Notes under the pieces: model-generated
Databases searched by the model: none
What the model was told of the DNA's origin: nothing
The model's input: only the letters and a program-made list of their open reading frames with translations
Shown here: positions 8,262-23,608 of the stretch, one piece after another
Layout of the letters: every line of letters starts with the position of its first letter
Numbering within the stretch: position 1 is the stretch's first letter
Translations under genes and position numbers: made by a program
Source: Methanothrix thermoacetophila PT
Lineage (GTDB): Archaea > Halobacteriota > Methanosarcinia > Methanotrichales > Methanotrichaceae
Reading direction: 5' to 3'
DNA: 64,000 bases
Assembly: GCF_000014945.1 (NCBI RefSeq)
Contig: NC_008553.1
Location: 496,001 to 560,000, forward strand

Positions 8262-9725
8262 ATGCTGCTGAGAGGATCAAGGCTGGGAGATATCTCCGGA
8301 GAGGTGTTGGATTTCATATCCTCAAGGGATGTGGATTTGTGGATAGCTGAGGCTGACGTCCTTGTGGACATGGCGCACCTCCTCATGCTTTATGAGAGAG
8401 GACTGATACCGCGAGAGGACTGCGCCAGAATACTCACGGCTCTGAAGGAGCTGCTCGCAGAAGGATTCGGGGTTCTTGGAGAGGGGGAGGACATACACGA
8501 GGCGATCGAGGCATATGTTATAGAGCGCGTCGGGCCGGCAGGCGGCAGAATGCACACCGCACGATCCAGGAATGATGAGGTGGCCACATGCATCCGAATC
8601 GCTCTCAGGGAGCAGATGCTCGGCCTCATGGATGAGCTCATCCAGATGATAGATGCGCTGGTGCGGATCGCGGATGAGACCCGGGAGCGCATAATTCCCG
8701 GGTACACGCATCTGCAGCACGCTCAGCCCACGACTCTCGCACATCACCTTCTTGCGCATGCAGACGCTTTAATAAGAGATCTCGAGAGGTTCGAAAGCAC
8801 CTATGAAAGGGTCAATCTCAGCCCGCTGGGTGCGGCTGCGTTCGCATCCACTGGGTTCGATATAGACCGATACATGACATGCGAGCTCCTAGGGTTCTCT
8901 GGGCTTGTGGAGAACAGCATGGACGCAGTGTCCAGCAGAGATTTCGCGCTGGAGGTTCTCTCTGACACATCGATACTGATGATAAACCTGAGCAGGATCG
9001 CGGAGGAGATCATACTCTGGTCAACCTCTGAGTTCGGATACGTAGAGGTGAACGACCTCTTCGCATCTACCAGCTCTATAATGCCTCAGAAGAAGAATCC
9101 GGATACCGCTGAGCTTGTAAGAGCGAAAAGCGGAACTGCCATCGGCTCTTTGGTCGGCGCGCTGAGCATATGCAAGGCGCTTCCGATGAGCTACAACAGG
9201 GATCTCCAGGAGCTTACACCACACATCTGGCGCGGGATTGGAGCCGCGAGATCGTCGCTGAGGGTCATGAGGGGGTGCGTGTCAACGCTCAGGTTCGACT
9301 TTGAGAGGCTTGAGAGATCATCAACAGAGGGATTCACAACAGCCACTGAGCTTGCCGATTCGATGGTGAGAATCACAGGAATCCCATTCAGAACAGCTCA
9401 TCAGATCGTCGGCAGGCTGGCGCGCCTTCCAGGAAAGCCGAGCCTGGAGGATCTCGACAGGGCTGCGATGGTGGTGGCAGATTTGCGGCTGAGCCAGATG
9501 GGGTTCACAGCTGAAGATCTCGAGAGAGCTCTTGATCCTAGAACGAACATCTCGATGCGCTCAAAACCTGGCGGCCCTGCGCCGGAGGAGGTCTCAAGGA
9601 TGCTGGATGCCAGGAAAAAGTACCTCGAGTCGGCGTCATCCAGGCTCGCAGAGAAGCGTTCGAAAGTAGATTCGGCCATCAGACGTCTGATGGAGGGGGT
9701 TGATCGCACAGTAACAGCTACATGA
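8262..9725 (+). CDS. argH: Argininosuccinate lyase
   Basis: Last step of arginine synthesis, cleaving argininosuccinate to arginine and fumarate. 487 residues, typical length. Family signatures: HTARSRNDEVAT, the catalytic-His segment GYTHLQHAQPTT, and the fumarase/lyase superfamily loop SSIMPQKKNPDTAEL. It begins 204 bp after argJ; the gap has an AT-rich stretch (TTGAATATAATGAGG) just before the gene, so it may have its own promoter. A GAGG-type ribosome binding site precedes the ATG. Confidence 0.96.
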   Translation: MLLRGSRLGDISGEVLDFISSRDVDLWIAEADVLVDMAHLLMLYERGLIPREDCARILTALKELLAEGFGVLGEGEDIHEAIEAYVIERVGPAGGRMHTARSRNDEVATCIRIALREQMLGLMDELIQMIDALVRIADETRERIIPGYTHLQHAQPTTLAHHLLAHADALIRDLERFESTYERVNLSPLGAAAFASTGFDIDRYMTCELLGFSGLVENSMDAVSSRDFALEVLSDTSILMINLSRIAEEIILWSTSEFGYVEVNDLFASTSSIMPQKKNPDTAELVRAKSGTAIGSLVGALSICKALPMSYNRDLQELTPHIWRGIGAARSSLRVMRGCVSTLRFDFERLERSSTEGFTTATELADSMVRITGIPFRTAHQIVGRLARLPGKPSLEDLDRAAMVVADLRLSQMGFTAEDLERALDPRTNISMRSKPGGPAPEEVSRMLDARKKYLESASSRLAEKRSKVDSAIRRLMEGVDRTVTAT

Positions 9726-9801: not shown

Positions 9802-10239
9802 TTACTTCTTCTCGTGCACCTCGCACGTCCCGACCTGGCAGGCCCTGCAGACCTCCCGCTCCTCATCGAGCTCTCGGGTGGCGGTTGCGAGAACGCTCGC
9901 GTTCACGAGATTCGCCGCGAGGAACATAGCAGCAGCAATCTCCTCATCGCTTATCCCCATCCTCGATGCAACCCGGATGTGCATCTCCAGGCAGTGACTG
10001 CACCTTATCGCAGCGCTGACCGCGATGGATATCAGCTCAATCGTCTTCATGTCGAGCTTTGAGTTGCGCACGATCGCGTTGTTGTGAAGGATCTTCGTCA
10101 CGAGAAGCTCCGGGCTGTCCTTCATGAAGTGAAATATGTAAGGGACCTCTCCATAGATCTCTTCGATGGTCTTTATCATATCCTCAGCAGACCTCTCCAC
10201 ACCCTTCTCGAGTATCCCCTTCAGCTCGTCCTCAAGCAT
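9802..10239 (-). CDS. AhpD-like (carboxymuconolactone decarboxylase fold) CxxC protein with extra C-terminal metal motif
   Basis: 145 residues from the ATG giving MLEDELKG, four bases after the mmp7 stop, so it is the last gene of the MCR activation operon. The AhpD fold is shown by ETIELISIAVSAA-type helix and CSHCLEMHIRVASRMG (Cys80, Cys83, His87), the redox CxxCxxxH site of alkylhydroperoxidase D-like proteins. Unusually the C-terminus ends in CRACQVGTCEVH (C131, C134, C139, H142; CX2CX4CX2H), probably binding zinc or an iron-sulfur cluster. AhpD-like proteins are thiol oxidoreductases; a link to MCR activation, which needs strong reductant, is inferred from the operon only. Confidence 0.85.
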   Translation of the reverse strand: MLEDELKGILEKGVERSAEDMIKTIEEIYGEVPYIFHFMKDSPELLVTKILHNNAIVRNSKLDMKTIELISIAVSAAIRCSHCLEMHIRVASRMGISDEEIAAAMFLAANLVNASVLATATRELDEEREVCRACQVGTCEVHEKK

Positions 10240-10243
10240 ATCC

Positions 10244-11167
10244 CTAAAACACCATCCCTGTCTCGGACTCAGGAAGTATCCTGACAAGCGTGTAGTTCTT
10301 CATTCTTGAGGGCAGTATCCTAGCGATCTCTTTAAGCATGACGCCCTCATCGAACATCACATTCCCGATCGCATCATGATATTCGTCATACGGAAGCTTT
10401 ATTCTGCATCCATTGAGGTTCAAGGCGATCGGGAGCGGCGAGTACGACCTTTCGATATCCGGAACCTGCTCGCGAACCACATCCATCACTCTCGGAGGAG
10501 ACGTCGTCAGCGGATCCTTCTCTATATCTGCGCGCATCTTGTCGAGAGCCCTGCCCACAGCTGCGACGATCCTGTCCAGGTTCCCGATCTCGTTCGCCTT
10601 CTTCGACCTGTGAGCGATCCTCCCCACAGAGGAGACGTACTCGAAGGCGTAGGGCATCTCCCCCTTCGGGATCTCAGGACCACCTGTCACGACCACAGGG
10701 ATGTTTACGCCCTTGTACAGCTCCTCCTTCTTGATAATGCATTTCACGAAATTCCCGAAGATGAAGACAGCCGCATCGTGCTCATTTATCAGCGCTGTCT
10801 CGTACTCGTTTATCTGGGCTATCTCTCGCCCGACCCCCCGCGCCAGCCCGATCATGTTGCTCTTCGCTCCATTCCGCCTGAGGTACTCTGCTATATCACA
10901 TGCTGTGTGCGGCAGGTGGTGTATCGCCAGTGTCGGGGTCACAACAGCAACCTCTGTTCCGGCAAGCGGCGCGCGTGTGAGCTCTCCGCGGAGCTCCTTC
11001 GTGAGATCCTCCAGGATCCTGAGATCCTCTGCGGGGACGAGCAGGAGCAGTATCACCTCGCTCTGGGTCACGTTCTTCTGCAGGAGGTAACCGCCCAGGT
11101 CCTCGACAAGCTCTATGACCAGGTCGTGCTTGTAGACGCCGCCGGTAAACATCACAGGCTCAAGCAT
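10244..11167 (-). CDS. mmp7: Methanogenesis marker protein 7
   Basis: 307 residues matching the methanogen-specific marker 7 family as I recall it (MLEPVMFTGGVYKHDL, LVPAEDLRILEDL, TGGPEIPKGEMPYAFEYVSSVGRI). Such proteins occur essentially only in organisms with MCR, and marker 7 has been reported to associate with the ATP-dependent MCR activation machinery. No classical enzyme motif is visible. It overlaps mmp17 by 8 bases and is followed by the AhpD-like gene. Cysteines are few (the C-x-I-I-K-K region and NLNGCRIKL). Confidence 0.9.
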   Translation of the reverse strand: MLEPVMFTGGVYKHDLVIELVEDLGGYLLQKNVTQSEVILLLLVPAEDLRILEDLTKELRGELTRAPLAGTEVAVVTPTLAIHHLPHTACDIAEYLRRNGAKSNMIGLARGVGREIAQINEYETALINEHDAAVFIFGNFVKCIIKKEELYKGVNIPVVVTGGPEIPKGEMPYAFEYVSSVGRIAHRSKKANEIGNLDRIVAAVGRALDKMRADIEKDPLTTSPPRVMDVVREQVPDIERSYSPLPIALNLNGCRIKLPYDEYHDAIGNVMFDEGVMLKEIARILPSRMKNYTLVRILPESETGMVF

Positions 11168-11729
11168 TCTCCATACCCCTTATCTTCTCCCTGACCTCCT
11201 CGATCAGCTCCGGTGTTATCGTCTCCTCAGAGGCGATGAAGAGGAAGGAGTCCTCGGTCATCTCGTTCCTTCTGTTTCTGAACCCCTCAGGCGCTATTCT
11301 TATCAGAGCATCGGTGAGATCCCTTCTGAACTCAGCGTCCACGTCCGTCACAATCAGATCCGCCGGGCTCACATCTGATGCAATCGTCAGCAGGTCTCTG
11401 TCCGGCTGCTCCACCCTGTCACGCCCGTACTTCTCCCACAGGACCCTGAGCATGTCAGCGAGATGCTCCTCCTCGTTCACCTTTATCTGGTATCCCTCTT
11501 GGGTCCTGACGACATCAGCGACATCGCCAACACGCAGTGGTGGAAGCGAGCCGCGCAGCAGGCCATAGACGGCAAAATACGGTCTTTCCATATCTATGTA
11601 AACGTAAAGCCTGCCTATGGATCTGACCAGGCCTAGGTCCTGGAGTATGTCGAGTATGATCTCTCGGTACTTCGCAGCGCCGAACTCCTCTCCCGGAGCC
11701 TCCACCCTGTAGACCTCGAGAGGATCCAT
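11160..11729 (-). CDS. mmp17: Methanogenesis marker protein 17
   Basis: 189 residues from the ATG giving MDPLEVYRVEAPGEEFG, two bases from the mmp15 stop; a longer frame upstream overlaps mmp15 and is not needed. Matches the methanogenesis marker 17 family: YIDMERPYFAVYG, VRVGDVADV-like segment, SPADLIVTDVDAEFRRDLTDALIRIAPEGFRNRRNEM. No catalytic motif recognised. Marker 17 is among the proteins reported with MCR activation complexes. Tight coupling with mmp15 and mmp7 supports one complex. Confidence 0.88.
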   Translation of the reverse strand: MDPLEVYRVEAPGEEFGAAKYREIILDILQDLGLVRSIGRLYVYIDMERPYFAVYGLLRGSLPPLRVGDVADVVRTQEGYQIKVNEEEHLADMLRVLWEKYGRDRVEQPDRDLLTIASDVSPADLIVTDVDAEFRRDLTDALIRIAPEGFRNRRNEMTEDSFLFIASEETITPELIEEVREKIRGMENA

Positions 11730-11730
11730 A

Positions 11731-12957
11731 TCAGACCTCCAGCATGCCGGAGACGAGCAGCGCGGCGCCGACAGCGCCGATGTACTGGGCGTGGTTCGGA
11801 ACAATGACCTTTATTCCCAGCAGATCCTCCATCGCTCTTGGGAGTCCTTCAATGAGCGATGTGCCGCCGACCATGATCACCGGTTGCTTCACCTCAACCT
11901 CCTGGAGCTGCTGCTCGAAGACCTGCTCTGCGACGCTGTGGCAGGCAGCCATCGCGACATCCTCCGGACGTGCGCCCTTCGAGAGGCTGTTTACGAGGCT
12001 CTGTGTGCCGAAGACAATACAGTAGCTGTTCATCGGCACGCTCTTGTACGACCCCCTGAGCGCGAGCTTGCCCAGATCTGTTATGTTCACGCCCAGCCTT
12101 CTCGCGGTGAGCTCCAGGAACCTTCCGGATGCGCCTGCGCATATCCCGCCCATCGTGAAGCTCCCGGGCACGCCGTCCTGCACGGATATCGCCTTGTTAT
12201 CCATCCCGCCTATATCTATCACAGTGGCAGGCCCCTTCTGGGCGTTCGCCAGGAAGACAGCTCCCTTGGAGTTGACCGTGATCTCCTCCTGTATCAGCTT
12301 CGCATCGAAGTGCTTGCCGACGAGGAATCTACCGTATCCTGTGACGCCTATGCCCTGGATCTCCTCGCGCTTCACCCCCGACTCCTGGAGAGCCTGCTGG
12401 AATGCCTCCTCAGCGCTCTTTATGACCTCTGTCGTGGGCACCCAGCCAGTGCCTATGATCTGGTTGTCGCGCATTATCACTGCCTTCGTGGTGGTCGAGC
12501 CTGAGTCTATGCCGGCTGTGAGCCCTGTCTGGCGCTCCCTGGCGAGCAATCCTCTCATCCTGGCTGTAGTCACCAGAGCCTCCATTCTCGTCAGCAGGGT
12601 CTCCGCCGTCGTCCGCTCTGTGAAAGAGTAGCTCAGAACAGGGAGTCTCGAATGCTCATGGATGTAGCGCCTCACCTCTCCACGAATTATGGCGCCCTCT
12701 GCGCATCTGAAACAGGTCGCCACGAAAACAGCGTCTGCAAGATCTGGATTCTGTACCAGCCTGGTCGCCCTCGCCATGATCAGGTTGAGGTCTCCACTCG
12801 GAACCGATACGCCGAAGCGCTTCTCCACCTCCATCACGTCCTCGAGCGAGACCTCGGGCGAGATCATCTTCGCGCCAACGATCTCAGCTGCCCTCTCAAG
12901 CTCCCTCTGGATTCCGCTGTACTCGGCGCCGCATGAAAGCTGGGCTATTCTTATCAT
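11731..12957 (-). CDS. mmp15: Methanogenesis marker protein 15 (BadF/BcrA-type ATPase domain)
   Basis: 408 residues. After an N-terminal region with cysteines ([21 protein letters not shown]) comes an ASKHA/BadF-like ATPase domain: [12 protein letters not shown] (phosphate 1, near residue 150), [13 protein letters not shown] (phosphate 2), [13 protein letters not shown] with the cluster-cysteine loop seen in 2-hydroxyacyl-CoA dehydratase activators, and [11 protein letters not shown] (adenosine). Such activators pass electrons at low potential using ATP and a bridging [4Fe-4S] cluster, which suits a role in reducing MCR; that role is inference. It starts 4 bases inside mmp5. Confidence 0.9.
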
Positions 12958-13391
12958 TTCAGCCCCTCCAGGAACATTCTGATCTCATGAACGAAGCGCC
13001 TGGCCTCACCATCGTCCCTCGGGTATTTCAGCTCTATGAAAGGTATGCCCTTGATCTTTATCAGCAGCCTGGTGAGCTCATTCGTCCTGGCGCATCCAGT
13101 GCACCCCACGAGACAGTTGTTATCCTCGACTATTATCGCGGCCTCTGCCTCATCTATCATCGGACCTATCAGCGACATCCGCCCGCGAACACCTGAGGGC
13201 ACATCGACTGCTGCATATTTCAGCCCCTTCTTCGGGTCCTCTGGTGTGATGTTCAGAGGAGGGGATTCGAGGCTCGGCGTGTCTATCTTCTTTCTGATCT
13301 CGTTCGCCATAACCAGGGGCGTGTGCCCCATCCTGTCGACGAGATCGGCGAGTATCGTGCTTGTGGGGGGGTAGACAATGACTTTGACCAT
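12954..13391 (-). CDS. mmp5: Methanogenesis marker protein 5
   Basis: 145 residues matching the marker 5 family: [25 protein letters not shown], the long [35 protein letters not shown] stretch, and a cysteine-rich [18 protein letters not shown] segment (three Cys within six residues) that could hold metal. Function not known. Its stop overlaps the mmp15 start codon and it begins 9 bases after mmp6. Confidence 0.88.
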
Positions 13392-13400
13392 CAGGATACC

Positions 13401-13826
13401 TCAGGCAAACTCATCCTTAATAATCTCTACAAGTCTTTCCATGCTCACGGGCGTCTTCTCGGGGGCGGCCTCTGGCAGGGGCGCGTTCCTGCTCTCCGCC
13501 TCGAGAGCCCTGGATATCATTGGAAGCATCTTCGACTCGCACTCCAGCATGAAGAAGCCAGGCCTCGGCCCTCCGCCACGGTGCCCGCGGCATCTTCTTG
13601 GATCTCCCGGTGGGAACCCACGGTCCTTTATGAATATCCCGTTCGGATCCATGGCTCTTATCTCCCTGACGAGATCTTCGATCTCGTCCTTCTCACCGTT
13701 TATGATCACCCCGAAGCAGGTCTCCTTCACATGAACGTCGCGCTTGGATCCGTAGATGTGCATGGCGATGTCAGAGGGGAGGATCTCAGACTCCGGAGAT
13801 GTTATCACGTACTTCGTAACCCTCAT
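13401..13826 (-). CDS. mmp6: Methanogenesis marker protein 6
   Basis: 141 residues of the marker 6 family: RVTKYVITSPESEILPSDIA near the start, CFGVIINGEKDEI, and the Arg/Gly-rich GDPRRCRGHRGGGPRPGFFMLE with one cysteine. No known enzyme fold recognised. Its start overlaps the mmp3 stop. The last 30 residues are a charged tail. Role is probably in MCR biogenesis by context. Confidence 0.88.
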   Translation of the reverse strand: MRVTKYVITSPESEILPSDIAMHIYGSKRDVHVKETCFGVIINGEKDEIEDLVREIRAMDPNGIFIKDRGFPPGDPRRCRGHRGGGPRPGFFMLECESKMLPMISRALEAESRNAPLPEAAPEKTPVSMERLVEIIKDEFA

Positions 13827-15352
13827 CTCTTCTCCTCCATTACATACACGATCTCCCCCTCCTTCACGTCCCTGAGCTTGTCAAGATCTATAACCCTGCC
13901 GATGATGTTCGTGCCCTCGAACTTCTCCCCGGAGGGGCCATACCTCCTGTCCTCTACGAACTTCACTCCAATCAGCCCGGTCCTCTTCGCCACCTGGTTC
14001 GTGACGCCTATCGATCCCGCAGGCACAGGACCTGTGGGCTTGTTCTCAGGCAGCAACTCCTTGTATCTGAGCGCGTCGATCAACGGCTTGAACAGAACCG
14101 TGTTCTCATAAACAAAGAATACCGGAAGAGGCCCCACCGGCCGCTCCTTGAGCCCCACAACATGCCTGAAATAGTCCAGGGTCTTCGGGGCCAGATCGTC
14201 GTAGAGCTCTATCCTCACCAGCCTGGATGACTGTATCGCCTTCAGTGAAACCTTACCGGCCTTCAGAACCTCCATGGTTGTCGGCGGGTTCTGCTCGATG
14301 ACGACCGCGTCATCTCCGGTGTAGCCATCGACCGATGGCTCTATGCCCCTGGATCTTGCGAGCTCCATCGCATCGCTGAGCGGCATGCCAAGCACCATGA
14401 ACCTCTCAGGTCTTACCTTTGCGGTGAGACGCTGGCCGGGGGATGCGAGCTTGAGGAGGTCCAGACCTGCAGTGACCCTTCCGACGACAGAGTGGCCAGG
14501 GTTGGATGTTCTGTCAGCCTTGTAGATGAATATGTGGCCCAGCCCTCTTCCGGACGTCCTCACCGTAACAGCGCCCTCAAGCCGCGGCTCCCTGTGCTCA
14601 AAGTCTATTGGCTCGCCCTTTAGGATATGGGAGGAGATGTATGAGCTGGAGATCGCATCCACCCTGAGCGCTCCATCCTTCGTGGCTGCAAGGAAGAACT
14701 CCGCCCCCTTGGGAGCGTCCTGGATGAGTTCAACCTCGAACCTAGAGTAGATCTCCATCCCATCGGCGAGAGGAAACGACATATCAGATGTGACAAGCTT
14801 CTCGGTCAGATCCTCCCACTCGACGATCGGCTCCACTTTGAGTATGCTGTCGCTCTTCTCCAGCCTGTCGAGTATGTTCTTCCCGCCGACGACCCTCGCG
14901 AAGATGCCCCTGCTCTCAGATGGCACACCGTAGACTGCGGAATGTCTGCGCTTGATGAATATCAGCTGGGACTTCTCGCTTTCAAAGCCGCTGGCGCCGA
15001 GGAGCACATCAAATCTGCTGTACTCGTGGACGCCTCTGCCCGGAGATATCGACGAAGGGAAGTTTCCAAAAGCAACCGCCCCTGAATCAGACCATCTCCC
15101 CTCCAGCCCCTCTATCCTCTCTACCGCCTCATGCCACGCATCCTTCAGGCCAGTATCCAGGAGATCGATCCTTATCCTGCCCTTGGTCGTGACGAGCCAG
15201 TAGGAGTCCGTGGCCTTCGCCTTCTCTCCGCGTCCTTTTATTATGCCGATCACGGCCCCTGGCGATACAGCGGCGTTCGCGGCCTCAAGAGCTTCTCCAA
15301 GAGTGGCCCCATCTCTCAGAGATACCTCCGAACCATCTACTCTAACCCTCAT
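13823..15352 (-). CDS. mmp3: Methanogenesis marker protein 3
   Basis: 509 residues from the ATG giving MRVRVDGSEVSLRDGATLGEAL; an in-frame upstream start would add 10 residues. The N-terminal third has a ubiquitin-like or ThiS-like look (VDGSEVSLRDGATLGEALEAAN). The middle and C-terminal parts contain two cyclophilin-like segments (for example GHIFIYKADRTSNPGHSVVGRV), as described for the marker 3 family. It lies between atwA and mmp6 and overlaps mmp6 by 4 bases. Marker 3 has been reported in MCR activation complexes. Confidence 0.9.
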   Translation of the reverse strand: MRVRVDGSEVSLRDGATLGEALEAANAAVSPGAVIGIIKGRGEKAKATDSYWLVTTKGRIRIDLLDTGLKDAWHEAVERIEGLEGRWSDSGAVAFGNFPSSISPGRGVHEYSRFDVLLGASGFESEKSQLIFIKRRHSAVYGVPSESRGIFARVVGGKNILDRLEKSDSILKVEPIVEWEDLTEKLVTSDMSFPLADGMEIYSRFEVELIQDAPKGAEFFLAATKDGALRVDAISSSYISSHILKGEPIDFEHREPRLEGAVTVRTSGRGLGHIFIYKADRTSNPGHSVVGRVTAGLDLLKLASPGQRLTAKVRPERFMVLGMPLSDAMELARSRGIEPSVDGYTGDDAVVIEQNPPTTMEVLKAGKVSLKAIQSSRLVRIELYDDLAPKTLDYFRHVVGLKERPVGPLPVFFVYENTVLFKPLIDALRYKELLPENKPTGPVPAGSIGVTNQVAKRTGLIGVKFVEDRRYGPSGEKFEGTNIIGRVIDLDKLRDVKEGEIVYVMEEKR

Positions 15353-15394
15353 ACGCCTCCTTGCCACCGGGAATCCCGGCAACCATCCTGGAGA

Positions 15395-16996
15395 TCAGCT
15401 CCCCAGCATCTCGCGCTCCTCCTCTTCTGTCAGCAACTTCAGGACATCCGCAGGAGCGCCGATAGATACCACTCTTCCGTTTCTCATAAGCATAGCGCGA
15501 TCACACACATTGCTGACAAAGTCCATGTCATGGCTCACTATGACGAATGTCTCCTCAAGCTCCTCACGTGCACTGAGAATCGACTTGCTCACCTCTATCT
15601 TCGTTATCGGATCCATCGTGCCTGTGGGCTCATCAAGAACAACTATCCTGGGCTCCTTTATAAGAACCTGTGCCATGGCGACCCTGTGCCGCTCGCCCTC
15701 GCTCAGCTCGTCCGGGTATTTGTTGAGGATCATCTCAGCCTCATCCTCTGTGAACCCGACGGTTGTGAGCGTGTGGATCGCCTTCCTCTCGCCGAGCTCA
15801 TACGGGAGCGAGAGCCCTATAGCCTCTGTCAGGTTCTCTATGACTGTTCTATAGGGATAGAGCGTGTACTCCTGGTGCAGGACACCGATATACTTCGTGG
15901 CCCTGCCTCGACCATCAGCACCGAGCAGCGTCATGTCCACCCATTCATCTCCGACCCTGACAAACGCGAACCCGCTCGTTGGGGTTATGAGCCCGCTGAT
16001 TATCTTCGAGAGCGTCGTCTTTCCACCGCCACTAACGCCCACTATGCCGAAGATCTCCCTCTCGTATACCTCGAAGGAGACGTTATCTACAGCTTTGACA
16101 ACACCGCGATCTATGCTGATGTATCTCTTCGAGAGGTTTGTGGCCCTGATTATCGGCTCGCCAACAGCAACCGGCTCCCTCTTCCCTACCTCTCCCGCCA
16201 TGGCGATGAACTGATCCGCTATCGTCCTGGGATCACCCACGGCCTGTATCTTCCCGTGATCGAGAAGTATAGCCCTGTCTGCCAGATCGACCATCACATC
16301 CTGCCAGTGGCTGGTGATGACCATGGTCATCTTGAAGTCCCTGACAGCTCTTTTTATGGAGTCGTGGACCACAGCCGCGGTCGCCGGATCCAGGGTTCCA
16401 GTCGGCTCATCTGCGAGTAGAAGCATCGGCGATTTTGCGAGCTGCCTTGCCAGCACAACCCTCTGCTTCTCGCCGCCGCTGAGCTCTCTCGCAACATGCA
16501 TCATCCTGTGTGAGAGGTTGACCTCGTCAAGAAGATCAGCTGCCTTGTGAACGCTGATCGTCTCGCCGGCGTCCTCGACAGCCCTCATGACGTTCACGAT
16601 CACCCTCTCATCGCCGTAGAGGGCAAATGTCCTCTGGAGCATTATGGCGATTCGCCGGGCGACTGCTCTCCTGAGAGGATCGTTTATCCCCAGCTTTGCG
16701 AAATCCGCTTCAGATGCTTTAAAAGTGCCACCGCATCTGCACTGCCCGCCCACTCTGCTCGGCGGCTCGACATGGCCGCAGCGGTCGCAGATTGCGATGT
16801 GGTATATCACACTCCCGCTTATGCCTGGAAACTCCTCAACCCCTCTCAGGACATGCATCAGAACGCTCTTGCCAGCACCGCTCCTGCCTAGGATCCCTAC
16901 AGACTCACCCTCCTCGATCTCGAGATTTACATTGCTCAGAACCTCAAGATCACCGAACCGAACAGTCAGATCCTTGATCTCTATAAAAGGTGCCAA
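15395..16996 (-). CDS. atwA: Methyl-coenzyme M reductase activation component A2 (double ABC ATPase)
   Basis: 533 residues with two ABC ATPase modules; component A2 drives ATP-dependent reductive activation of MCR. Module 1 has Walker A GRSGAGKS (residues 37-44), LSGGE (172-176) and LLLADEPTG; module 2 has GVSGGGKTT, LSEGE and VVLDEPTGTMD. A zinc-finger-like insert lies in module 1 (C70, C73, C86, C88), a known feature of this family. The start is TTG: no ATG or GTG gives MAPFIEIKDL. A TATA box about 24 bases upstream leaves room for almost no leader. It heads the operon running to the AhpD-like gene. Confidence 0.94.
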   Translation of the reverse strand: MAPFIEIKDLTVRFGDLEVLSNVNLEIEEGESVGILGRSGAGKSVLMHVLRGVEEFPGISGSVIYHIAICDRCGHVEPPSRVGGQCRCGGTFKASEADFAKLGINDPLRRAVARRIAIMLQRTFALYGDERVIVNVMRAVEDAGETISVHKAADLLDEVNLSHRMMHVARELSGGEKQRVVLARQLAKSPMLLLADEPTGTLDPATAAVVHDSIKRAVRDFKMTMVITSHWQDVMVDLADRAILLDHGKIQAVGDPRTIADQFIAMAGEVGKREPVAVGEPIIRATNLSKRYISIDRGVVKAVDNVSFEVYEREIFGIVGVSGGGKTTLSKIISGLITPTSGFAFVRVGDEWVDMTLLGADGRGRATKYIGVLHQEYTLYPYRTVIENLTEAIGLSLPYELGERKAIHTLTTVGFTEDEAEMILNKYPDELSEGERHRVAMAQVLIKEPRIVVLDEPTGTMDPITKIEVSKSILSAREELEETFVIVSHDMDFVSNVCDRAMLMRNGRVVSIGAPADVLKLLTEEEEREMLGS

Positions 16997-17322: not shown

Positions 17323-17922
17323 TTATTGCTCTTCACCCGTATCATTATAAGCATTTCCACCGAAACCGCCCCATCTGGGCGATATGCTGTTATCTATCCC
17401 CAGAATGTCGAGAATCCTACACACCACAGTGTCCACCAGATCCCCGACTTTTAGAGGCCTGGAATAGAAAGAGGGGGATGCTGGAAGTACAATACCCCCT
17501 GCCTCCGAGACTGCAACCATGTTTCTCAGATGTATGAGGCTCAGTGGAGACTCTCTGGGCACCAGCACGAGCGGCCTTCGCTGCTTCAGGCAGACATCAG
17601 CTACCCTTGTGATGAGCGTGTCAGACATACCATAGGCTATCGCTGCCATAGTTCTCATGCTGCATGGGGCCACAACCATAGCATCGAAGAGATACGAGCC
17701 GCTTGCAATGGGCGCTGTGAGGTCGCCCGGCTCGAACACGCGATCTGCCAGAGAGATGATATCCTTGTAGGATCTATCGCACTCTATCTCCAGGATCTTT
17801 CTTGCAGCCTCGGTGACTATCAGGTTGACAAAACAGCGCTCACGCAGAACCTCAAGCAGTCTTGTACCATACACAACACCAGAAGCGCCACTTATCCCAA
17901 GGACGATCTCCACACCATCCAC
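17323..17922 (-). CDS. ubiX: Flavin prenyltransferase (UbiX family)
   Basis: 199 residues. Makes prenylated FMN, the cofactor of UbiD-type decarboxylases. Family features: GISGASGVVYGTRLLEVL (FMN phosphate loop), the APCSMRTMAAIAYGMSDTLITRVADVCLKQRRPLVLVPRE core with the conserved S/M/T residues, and SPLSLIHLRNM. The C-terminal 18 residues (RWGGFGGNAYNDTGEEQ) are beyond the core. No ubiD homolog lies in this window. The zinc-ribbon gene follows at 13 bp. Confidence 0.92.
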   Translation of the reverse strand: MDGVEIVLGISGASGVVYGTRLLEVLRERCFVNLIVTEAARKILEIECDRSYKDIISLADRVFEPGDLTAPIASGSYLFDAMVVAPCSMRTMAAIAYGMSDTLITRVADVCLKQRRPLVLVPRESPLSLIHLRNMVAVSEAGGIVLPASPSFYSRPLKVGDLVDTVVCRILDILGIDNSISPRWGGFGGNAYNDTGEEQ

Positions 17923-22366: not shown

Positions 22367-23608
22367 TTACACGCCGAGCGCGTTGATCTCATCGATCAGC
22401 TCGGCGAAGGCCTCAAGCTCTAGCTCTATGACCTCTTCCTCTGTCATGGAGATGCTCATCTCGCCATCGACCGTGAGCCTGTCCGGCCCTCTCACTATCA
22501 GCCTGTCGATCCCATCTCTCGAGAGCTCCTTTTTCACCTCCCTCTCATGCGCAAGCATCCTTCCCGGAATGACGACGGTCCTTTTAACCCTGGAGAGATC
22601 TATGTCCCTGAGATCATCGATCGTCATGAGGCATGCGACATCTTTCTTTGTGGCGACGACATTCACGTCTCTACCGAGTGCAGAGAATATCCTCTCGAGC
22701 AGCGGAGCAGCAATTGATCCTGTTACGATCGTTGCAGATCTCTTCAGCTCCGGGAGAGATCTGAGTCTGTCGGTATTGTGAGCAAGGGAGAATGGCGCCT
22801 TCGTCTCCGGATCCCAGAGTGGGGTTCCGGTTATCCTTATGCTGTACCTCTGATTCATCTCCGTGACAATGCACCTGAACTCCTCAACGGTGTGGACATC
22901 CTGCCCTGGGATGATGGGCGCATTTCCCAGTATCAATCCCTGCTCAGGATGGTTTGCAAACCTCATCAGGATCAATCCCTTTGCTCCCATATCCTCAAGA
23001 TCCTGGCATGTTCGCTCGAGCACCTCCCCGTCGTTCACGCCCTTCAGCAGAACCGCCGCTGCATACACATCACACCTCTCGCAGAAAATCCTCAGATTAG
23101 AGAGCGCTGCCTCTGGATGCTTGTCATGCATGTATTTTCGTCTCAGCTCGGGATCTGTTGCGAAGACTGTAAAGGAGACCTCTCTGACGCCCGCATCCAC
23201 AAGCTCATCCGCCTCGTCGCCCCGCTTGAATCCCTTTCCGCTGGTGTAGCCCAGATGTATCGGGACATTCTTCTGGCCGAGAATTCTCACGAGTTTCAGA
23301 AGATTTGGATAGCAGCTCAGGTCGCCGCCACCGCTTATGGTCACCTTCTCCGGCGTGGCTCCATAAGAGGCCTGGGCGACATCGAACACCACTGCATCAA
23401 GCGGCTTGAAGCCCGGGTATCCCTCGATTATGGCCCTGGTGCAGTAATCGCAGCCCTTCCTGAACGGAAGACAGTGCTTGCAGCCAAAGGGCGGAACCGG
23501 CTTCACGCCCCTGAAGTAGCAGTAGGTACAGAATCCACCGCAATCGATGCCGGGCCTGCCGCCAACATCTGCGAGTATCTCCATGGAAGCGAGTCTGTCC
23601 AGGAACAT
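22367..23608 (-). CDS. mmp10: Methanogenesis marker protein 10, radical SAM MCR arginine methyltransferase
   Basis: Cobalamin-dependent radical SAM enzyme that C-methylates an arginine of McrA. From the ATG giving MFLDRLASMEILADVGG (AAAGGT upstream) it has 413 residues; ATG nine codons on is an alternative. The cluster motif is C23-x3-C27-x2-C30 in PGIDCGGFCTYCYF, followed by extra cysteines C43, C46, C53 and C56, typical of this family. The SAM glycine-rich segment reads VTISGGGDLSCYP. A longer frame reaching further upstream runs through direct repeats and is not favoured. It is 5.4 kb from the main MCR cluster. Confidence 0.93.
   Translation of the reverse strand: MFLDRLASMEILADVGGRPGIDCGGFCTYCYFRGVKPVPPFGCKHCLPFRKGCDYCTRAIIEGYPGFKPLDAVVFDVAQASYGATPEKVTISGGGDLSCYPNLLKLVRILGQKNVPIHLGYTSGKGFKRGDEADELVDAGVREVSFTVFATDPELRRKYMHDKHPEAALSNLRIFCERCDVYAAAVLLKGVNDGEVLERTCQDLEDMGAKGLILMRFANHPEQGLILGNAPIIPGQDVHTVEEFRCIVTEMNQRYSIRITGTPLWDPETKAPFSLAHNTDRLRSLPELKRSATIVTGSIAAPLLERIFSALGRDVNVVATKKDVACLMTIDDLRDIDLSRVKRTVVIPGRMLAHEREVKKELSRDGIDRLIVRGPDRLTVDGEMSISMTEEEVIELELEAFAELIDEINALGV

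Follow-up and report, generated by a model that had tools for sequence, protein, structure and literature searches.

The gene under study lies in a stretch of 64,000 nucleotides from Methanothrix thermoacetophila PT (positions 496,001 to 560,000 of NC_008553.1; hereafter the window), which is part of a closed genome of 1,879,471 bp. Translation of positions 9802-10239 on the minus strand of the window gives an AhpD/CMD protein of 145 amino acids, and its gene is the final member of a one-strand gene order atwA-mmp3-mmp6-mmp5-mmp15-mmp17-mmp7-ahpD. The features are as follows.

9802..10239, minus strand: AhpD/CMD-family protein, 145 amino acids, with a C-terminal Cys-pair tail (PF02627, 60.6 bits)
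9805..9849, minus strand: C-terminal tail, residues 131-145, with the conserved pair C131 and C134 and the local residues C139 and H142 (orthologue comparison; AlphaFold2 pLDDT 57-60)
9973..10038, minus strand: codons of the AhpD catalytic set E68...C80-S-H82-C83-x3-H87, residues 68-89 (invariant in 17 and in 47 orthologues)
10244..11167, minus strand: mmp7, methanogenesis marker 7 (TIGR03274, 395.5 bits)
11160..11804, minus strand: mmp17, whose listed start probably lies too far upstream (TIGR03291, 145.5 bits)
11731..12957, minus strand: mmp15, with a CoA_E_activ-type ATPase domain (TIGR03286, 705.5 bits)
12954..13391, minus strand: mmp5 (TIGR03271, 212.5 bits)
13401..13826, minus strand: mmp6 (TIGR03272, 154.1 bits)
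13823..15382, minus strand: mmp3 (TIGR03268, 560.5 bits)
15395..16996, minus strand: atwA, component A2 of MCR activation (TIGR03269, 848.1 bits)

The identities of atwA, mmp3, mmp6, mmp5, mmp15, mmp17, and mmp7 were assigned by NCBIfam models, each scoring above its curated cut-off. The intergenic gaps in the operon ranged from -8 to +12 bp, with the single exception of -74 bp at mmp15/mmp17. This 74-nt overlap is probably a start-codon artefact, since the TIGR03291 match starts at mmp17 residue 39; an internal ATG near residue 26 would abolish it. The stop codon of mmp7 and the ATG of the ahpD-like gene are separated by 4 bp, and a scan covering bacterial-type promoters only found no promoter- or terminator-like site at this junction. 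Coordinates and NCBIfam matches thus agree with the preliminary description of this DNA, which had placed the gene 4 bp after mmp7 and behind seven MCR maturation genes. The next gene beyond it (8262-9725, plus strand) is convergent with it. On the other side of the operon, a gene on the same strand as atwA and ~330 bp upstream of it (17323-17922, minus strand) presumably encodes a UbiX-like flavin prenyltransferase, judged by eye. Also in the window is mmp10 (22367-23584, minus strand; TIGR03278, 594.6 bits), which encodes the McrA-arginine methylase; it shares the strand of atwA and lies ~5.4 kb upstream of that gene.

The protein matched the Pfam CMD family (PF02627) with 60.6 bits against a gathering cut-off of 23. 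Glu118, Cys130, His132, Cys133, and His137 are the established catalytic residues of AhpD, and a profile of 17 orthologues aligned without gaps to residues 112-164 of Mycobacterium tuberculosis AhpD, placing E68, C80, H82, C83, and H87 on these five positions. All five residues were invariant in alignments of 17 and of 47 orthologues. The CxxCxxxH thiol site reported earlier (C80, C83, H87) was found in the translation, with H82 and E68 added to the set. An entry for the H137F mutant of AhpD was also met among the solved-structure matches. The score against the AhpD subfamily model TIGR00777 was 33.3 bits, far below its cut-off of 191.95, and that against the PcaC equivalog model TIGR02425 was 26 bits, far below its cut-off of 155.7, so that a 4-carboxymuconolactone decarboxylase function was not supported.

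The AlphaFold2 model was all-helical, with seven helices, a pLDDT of 83.8, and a confident core. The prediction was weak from about residue 121 onwards, with pLDDT values of 57-60 over residues 131-145, and the tail is accordingly predicted to be flexible next to the confident core. The nearest solved folds or sequences were Methanothermobacter O27018 (3bey), TM1620 (1vke/1p8c), and RclX (7y4r), which share the CMD core with CxxCxxxH; in Foldseek, 3bey (rmsd 1.5-1.6 Å) and 7y4r both had a probability of 1.00, with E-values of only ~5e-3. The chains of 3bey and 7y4r are 96 and 112 amino acids long, compared to 145 here, and the matches stop before the tail. With M. tuberculosis AhpD (PDB 1gu9, 1knc; TIGR00777) the protein has in common the catalytic set and the all-helical CMD fold. 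However, it is ~30 residues shorter, its overall similarity to AhpD is very low, and the C-terminal Cys pair and the linkage to MCR genes are features of its own. The reductant of AhpD itself is a lipoylated protein, and its client is AhpC.

The tail had been described as a CX2CX4CX2H motif (C131, C134, C139, H142). All four residues are real in this genome, but only C131 and C134 are kept across the family: C139 and H142 occur only in Methanothrix plus a few close relatives, with Methanothrix harundinacea already lacking them, as do the other families read, so the full motif was rejected as a family motif. The conserved feature is instead a CX2-3C pair at the C-terminus, preceded by a variable linker, present in 78 of 79 complete orthologues (from 80 named loci, one truncated at a contig end and one with wider Cys spacing). 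The spacing was mostly CX2C, with CX3C in several Methanomicrobiales and CX5C once, and the preceding linker varied in both length and sequence. Retention of the Cys pair amid drifting flanking sequence suggests that both thiols are under selection. The pair was absent from all 26 other CMD proteins read in the same phylum and from three bacterial homologues. A virus- or plasmid-borne origin was also considered and rejected: viral contigs held no relative of the protein, and the plasmid homologues were CMDs, of which three were read and lacked the tail.

Alternatively, the tail cysteines could coordinate Zn or an Fe-S cluster, together with C139 and H142 in Methanothrix or between subunits elsewhere, and anchor the protein to the activation complex. 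The Methanothrix tail offers four potential ligands, both CX2C and CX3C variants are tolerated, and ligands could be shared between subunits because the CMD proteins with solved structures form oligomers. We regard such a metal or Fe-S accessory as improbable, since only two tail cysteines are conserved and further ligands are missing in most orthologues. Of the earlier proposal of a dedicated thiol/metal protein, the thiol part is thus borne out by the invariant catalytic set and the near-invariant tail pair, while a bound metal is not supported. The varied spacing of the pair (CX2C, CX3C, once CX5C) would by itself fit a structural disulfide or a metal site equally well.

To compare gene positions, the ahpD-like gene and mmp7 were located across 394 genomes of the phylum, of which 129 could be scored among the matches listed. 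The orthologue lay downstream of mmp7 in the same orientation in 122 of these 129 genomes, at a distance of up to 400 bp in 106 and of 0.7-4.3 kb in 16 (among the matches listed). In the best-sampled family (f2), this arrangement was found in all 62 genomes among the matches listed; the seven exceptions among those matches, for the most part Methanoperedens and a second ANME-2 group, were six genomes from f3 and f4 together with a single draft from f15. The place of the gene in other MCR-containing genomes, on which the preliminary description had made its reading depend, therefore matches that in the window, and most orthologues are linked to mmp7. In some genomes of family f15 (L035, L036), PEGA- and META-domain genes intervene between mmp7 and the orthologue, which despite these insertions is on the same strand as mmp7 and within a few kb. 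At a Methanocella locus (L040), a DsbD/CcdA-type membrane protein (PF13386; 2552-3961, minus strand) is encoded between the two genes on the opposite strand; it was rejected as a redox partner because the other loci inspected did not share it.

Among the 80 named loci, 47 had mmp7 just upstream (median gap 28 bp), 27 faced mmp10, and six had neither neighbour, being short contigs or unlinked. The group facing mmp10 comprised Methanoperedens and a second ANME-2 group, and two mmp10 neighbours that were checked both scored far above the Mmp10 cut-off (TIGR03278). Mmp10, the McrA-arginine methyltransferase, is a radical SAM enzyme unrelated to the present protein. Most orthologues that are not linked to mmp7 thus still lie beside an MCR-maturation gene, and the 122 of 129 genomes together with the neighbourhoods of the named loci rule out chance placement. 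The two contexts are perhaps not independent of each other, because in one genome (G387, C1:697503-699635) mmp10 and mmp7 are convergent and 27 bp apart, with the ahpD-like orthologue elsewhere (211600-212034), and an ancestral cluster could have split in different ways. This pair weakens the mmp10 linkage as fully independent evidence.

The linkage also bears on whether the protein is a general thiol enzyme kept in the operon by descent, with a function not tied to MCR. Shared descent does explain part of the linkage, as the gene tree follows species groups, and unrelated genes intervene after mmp7 in some Methanomicrobiales and in Methanocella. However, the linkage holds over several orders despite the surrounding insertions, an mmp10 neighbour appears where mmp7 linkage is lost, and the gene is retained by almost every genome of the group, and we consider a bystander of this kind very unlikely.

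Within the families that have the orthologue, ~167 of 170 genomes carried it among the matches listed. The three non-carriers (G039, G341, G364) are draft assemblies with a fragment, a weak CMD match, or nothing. Carriers belong to the Methanosarcinia, Methanomicrobiales, and Methanocellales, and include the methane oxidisers ANME-2 and ANME-3. Some 70 further genomes of the phylum that carry mmp7 had no match or a weak, non-orthologous CMD among the matches listed; in 21 of them, which were searched again with a profile, none of the best matches read had the tail. In the gene tree, the other CMD proteins were on one side (support 79) and the orthologue groups followed species, with deep branches that are uncertain because the alignment is short. 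The preliminary description had allowed for homologs that occur mainly in non-methanogens and lack the tail, but the orthologues were found in MCR-bearing archaea and are tailed. The survey covered one phylum, with the Class I methanogens (Methanobacteriales, Methanococcales) outside it. The ahpD-like gene is a lineage-specific accessory of one large group of MCR-bearing archaea and not a core part of activation; a universal core factor was rejected, as no orthologue was found in the ~70 mmp7-bearing genomes among the matches listed.

The activation complex of Methanococcus maripaludis consists of McrC, Mmp7, Mmp17, Mmp3, A2, and DUF2098 (PMC12176620), and the genes mmp7, mmp17, mmp3, and atwA share an operon with the present gene. 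McrC pull-downs in that organism recovered McrA/B/G, Mmp3, Mmp7, Mmp17, A2, DUF2098, and Hsp20 (PMC12176620, PMC9584954). In contrast to the lineage-specific gene described here, no AhpD-like protein was reported for the complex or in these pull-downs, in an organism whose gene content lies outside the present survey (PMC12176620, PMC9584954). The suggestion that the protein is a missing part of MCR activation therefore stands for the linkage to mmp7 and falls for a general part, given the ~70 mmp7-bearing genomes without an orthologue (among the matches listed) and a complex that is active without a reported AhpD-like protein (PMC12176620). MCR activation does not depend on the orthologue everywhere.

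We consider it on balance probable that the protein is a dedicated AhpD-fold dithiol-disulfide oxidoreductase that is co-expressed with, and serves, the MCR activation or maturation machinery. The C80/C83 pair would carry out dithiol-disulfide exchange, as in AhpD. The flexible tail pair C131/C134 may act as a built-in swinging arm that shuttles reducing equivalents between C80/C83 and a partner, which would probably be a component of MCR activation or maturation. In M. tuberculosis, electrons pass from NADH through Lpd, DlaT (lipoyl), and AhpD to AhpC (PMC12028322). As it is the lipoyl step that reduces AhpD there, a dithiol arm within the protein would naturally substitute for it. The likeliest use would be to keep sulfur groups of the activation complex reduced, with the cluster-binding cysteines of McrC, Mmp7, and Mmp17 or the inhibitory CoM-S-S-CoB as candidate targets. 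CoM-S-S-CoB sits in the proximal site of the activation complex, in what has been described as an inhibited state (PMC12176620). It seems less likely that the protein directly supplies the low-potential electron by which Ni(I) is formed.

The protein might instead be an antioxidant, that is, a thiol peroxidase or peroxidase reductase that shields the oxygen-sensitive activation complex and MCR and is co-made with its target; we hold this to be a possible but less favoured explanation. AhpD relatives serve peroxide defence (PMC8945050), and the complete catalytic set of AhpD is present. The gene is also confined to methanogen groups that are generally held to be more oxygen-tolerant, and a placement near a very oxygen-sensitive machine would yield most of the same genomic picture except for the tail. 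On the other hand, an antioxidant leaves the tail Cys pair unexplained, a general antioxidant would not require a location as specific as one beside MCR-specific genes, and no ahpC-like neighbour was seen by eye in the ORFs read.

A more specific form of the dithiol-disulfide oxidoreductase is a natural coupler between thiols and the activation complex, in which the tail dithiol would pass electrons of the CoM or thioredoxin pool to the cluster relay of McrC-Mmp7-Mmp17 or would clear CoM-S-S-CoB. We think that such a coupler is unlikely; if it were true, a mild thiol donor could take part in MCR activation. Activation by DTT works with A2 plus A3a (PMC9081873), and crude A3a is indispensable for this effect of DTT (PMC9081873, PMC12176620). 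DTT-driven activation makes a thiol input plausible. The A3a preparation of that work reportedly came from Methanothermobacter, which is outside the lineages where the gene was found, so the missing A3a factor cannot simply be equated with the AhpD-like protein. Thiols have potentials of about -300 mV and free F430 one of -650 mV, and a thiol alone is too weak to reduce F430.

Almost all methane of biological origin is made by MCR, and the in vivo reduction of its nickel cofactor is still an open question. The M. maripaludis complex described in 2025 activates MCR weakly, and its authors noted that auxiliary factors may be missing (PMC12176620). The ahpD-like gene encodes a conserved, uncharacterised redox protein in the same operon as genes of the activation complex, and by its linkage it is a strong, as yet unproven candidate for a missing redox helper. 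A literature search with incomplete coverage of subscription papers and supplementary tables found no link between AhpD/CMD proteins and MCR activation. The CMD/AhpD family is already known; what is new here is a member that has a conserved additional pair of cysteines and its own dedicated genomic location. Its carriers include acetate- and methyl-based methanogens as well as ANME-2 and ANME-3 methane oxidisers, and the question of its role is directly testable, because the gene can be deleted and tagged in Methanosarcina.
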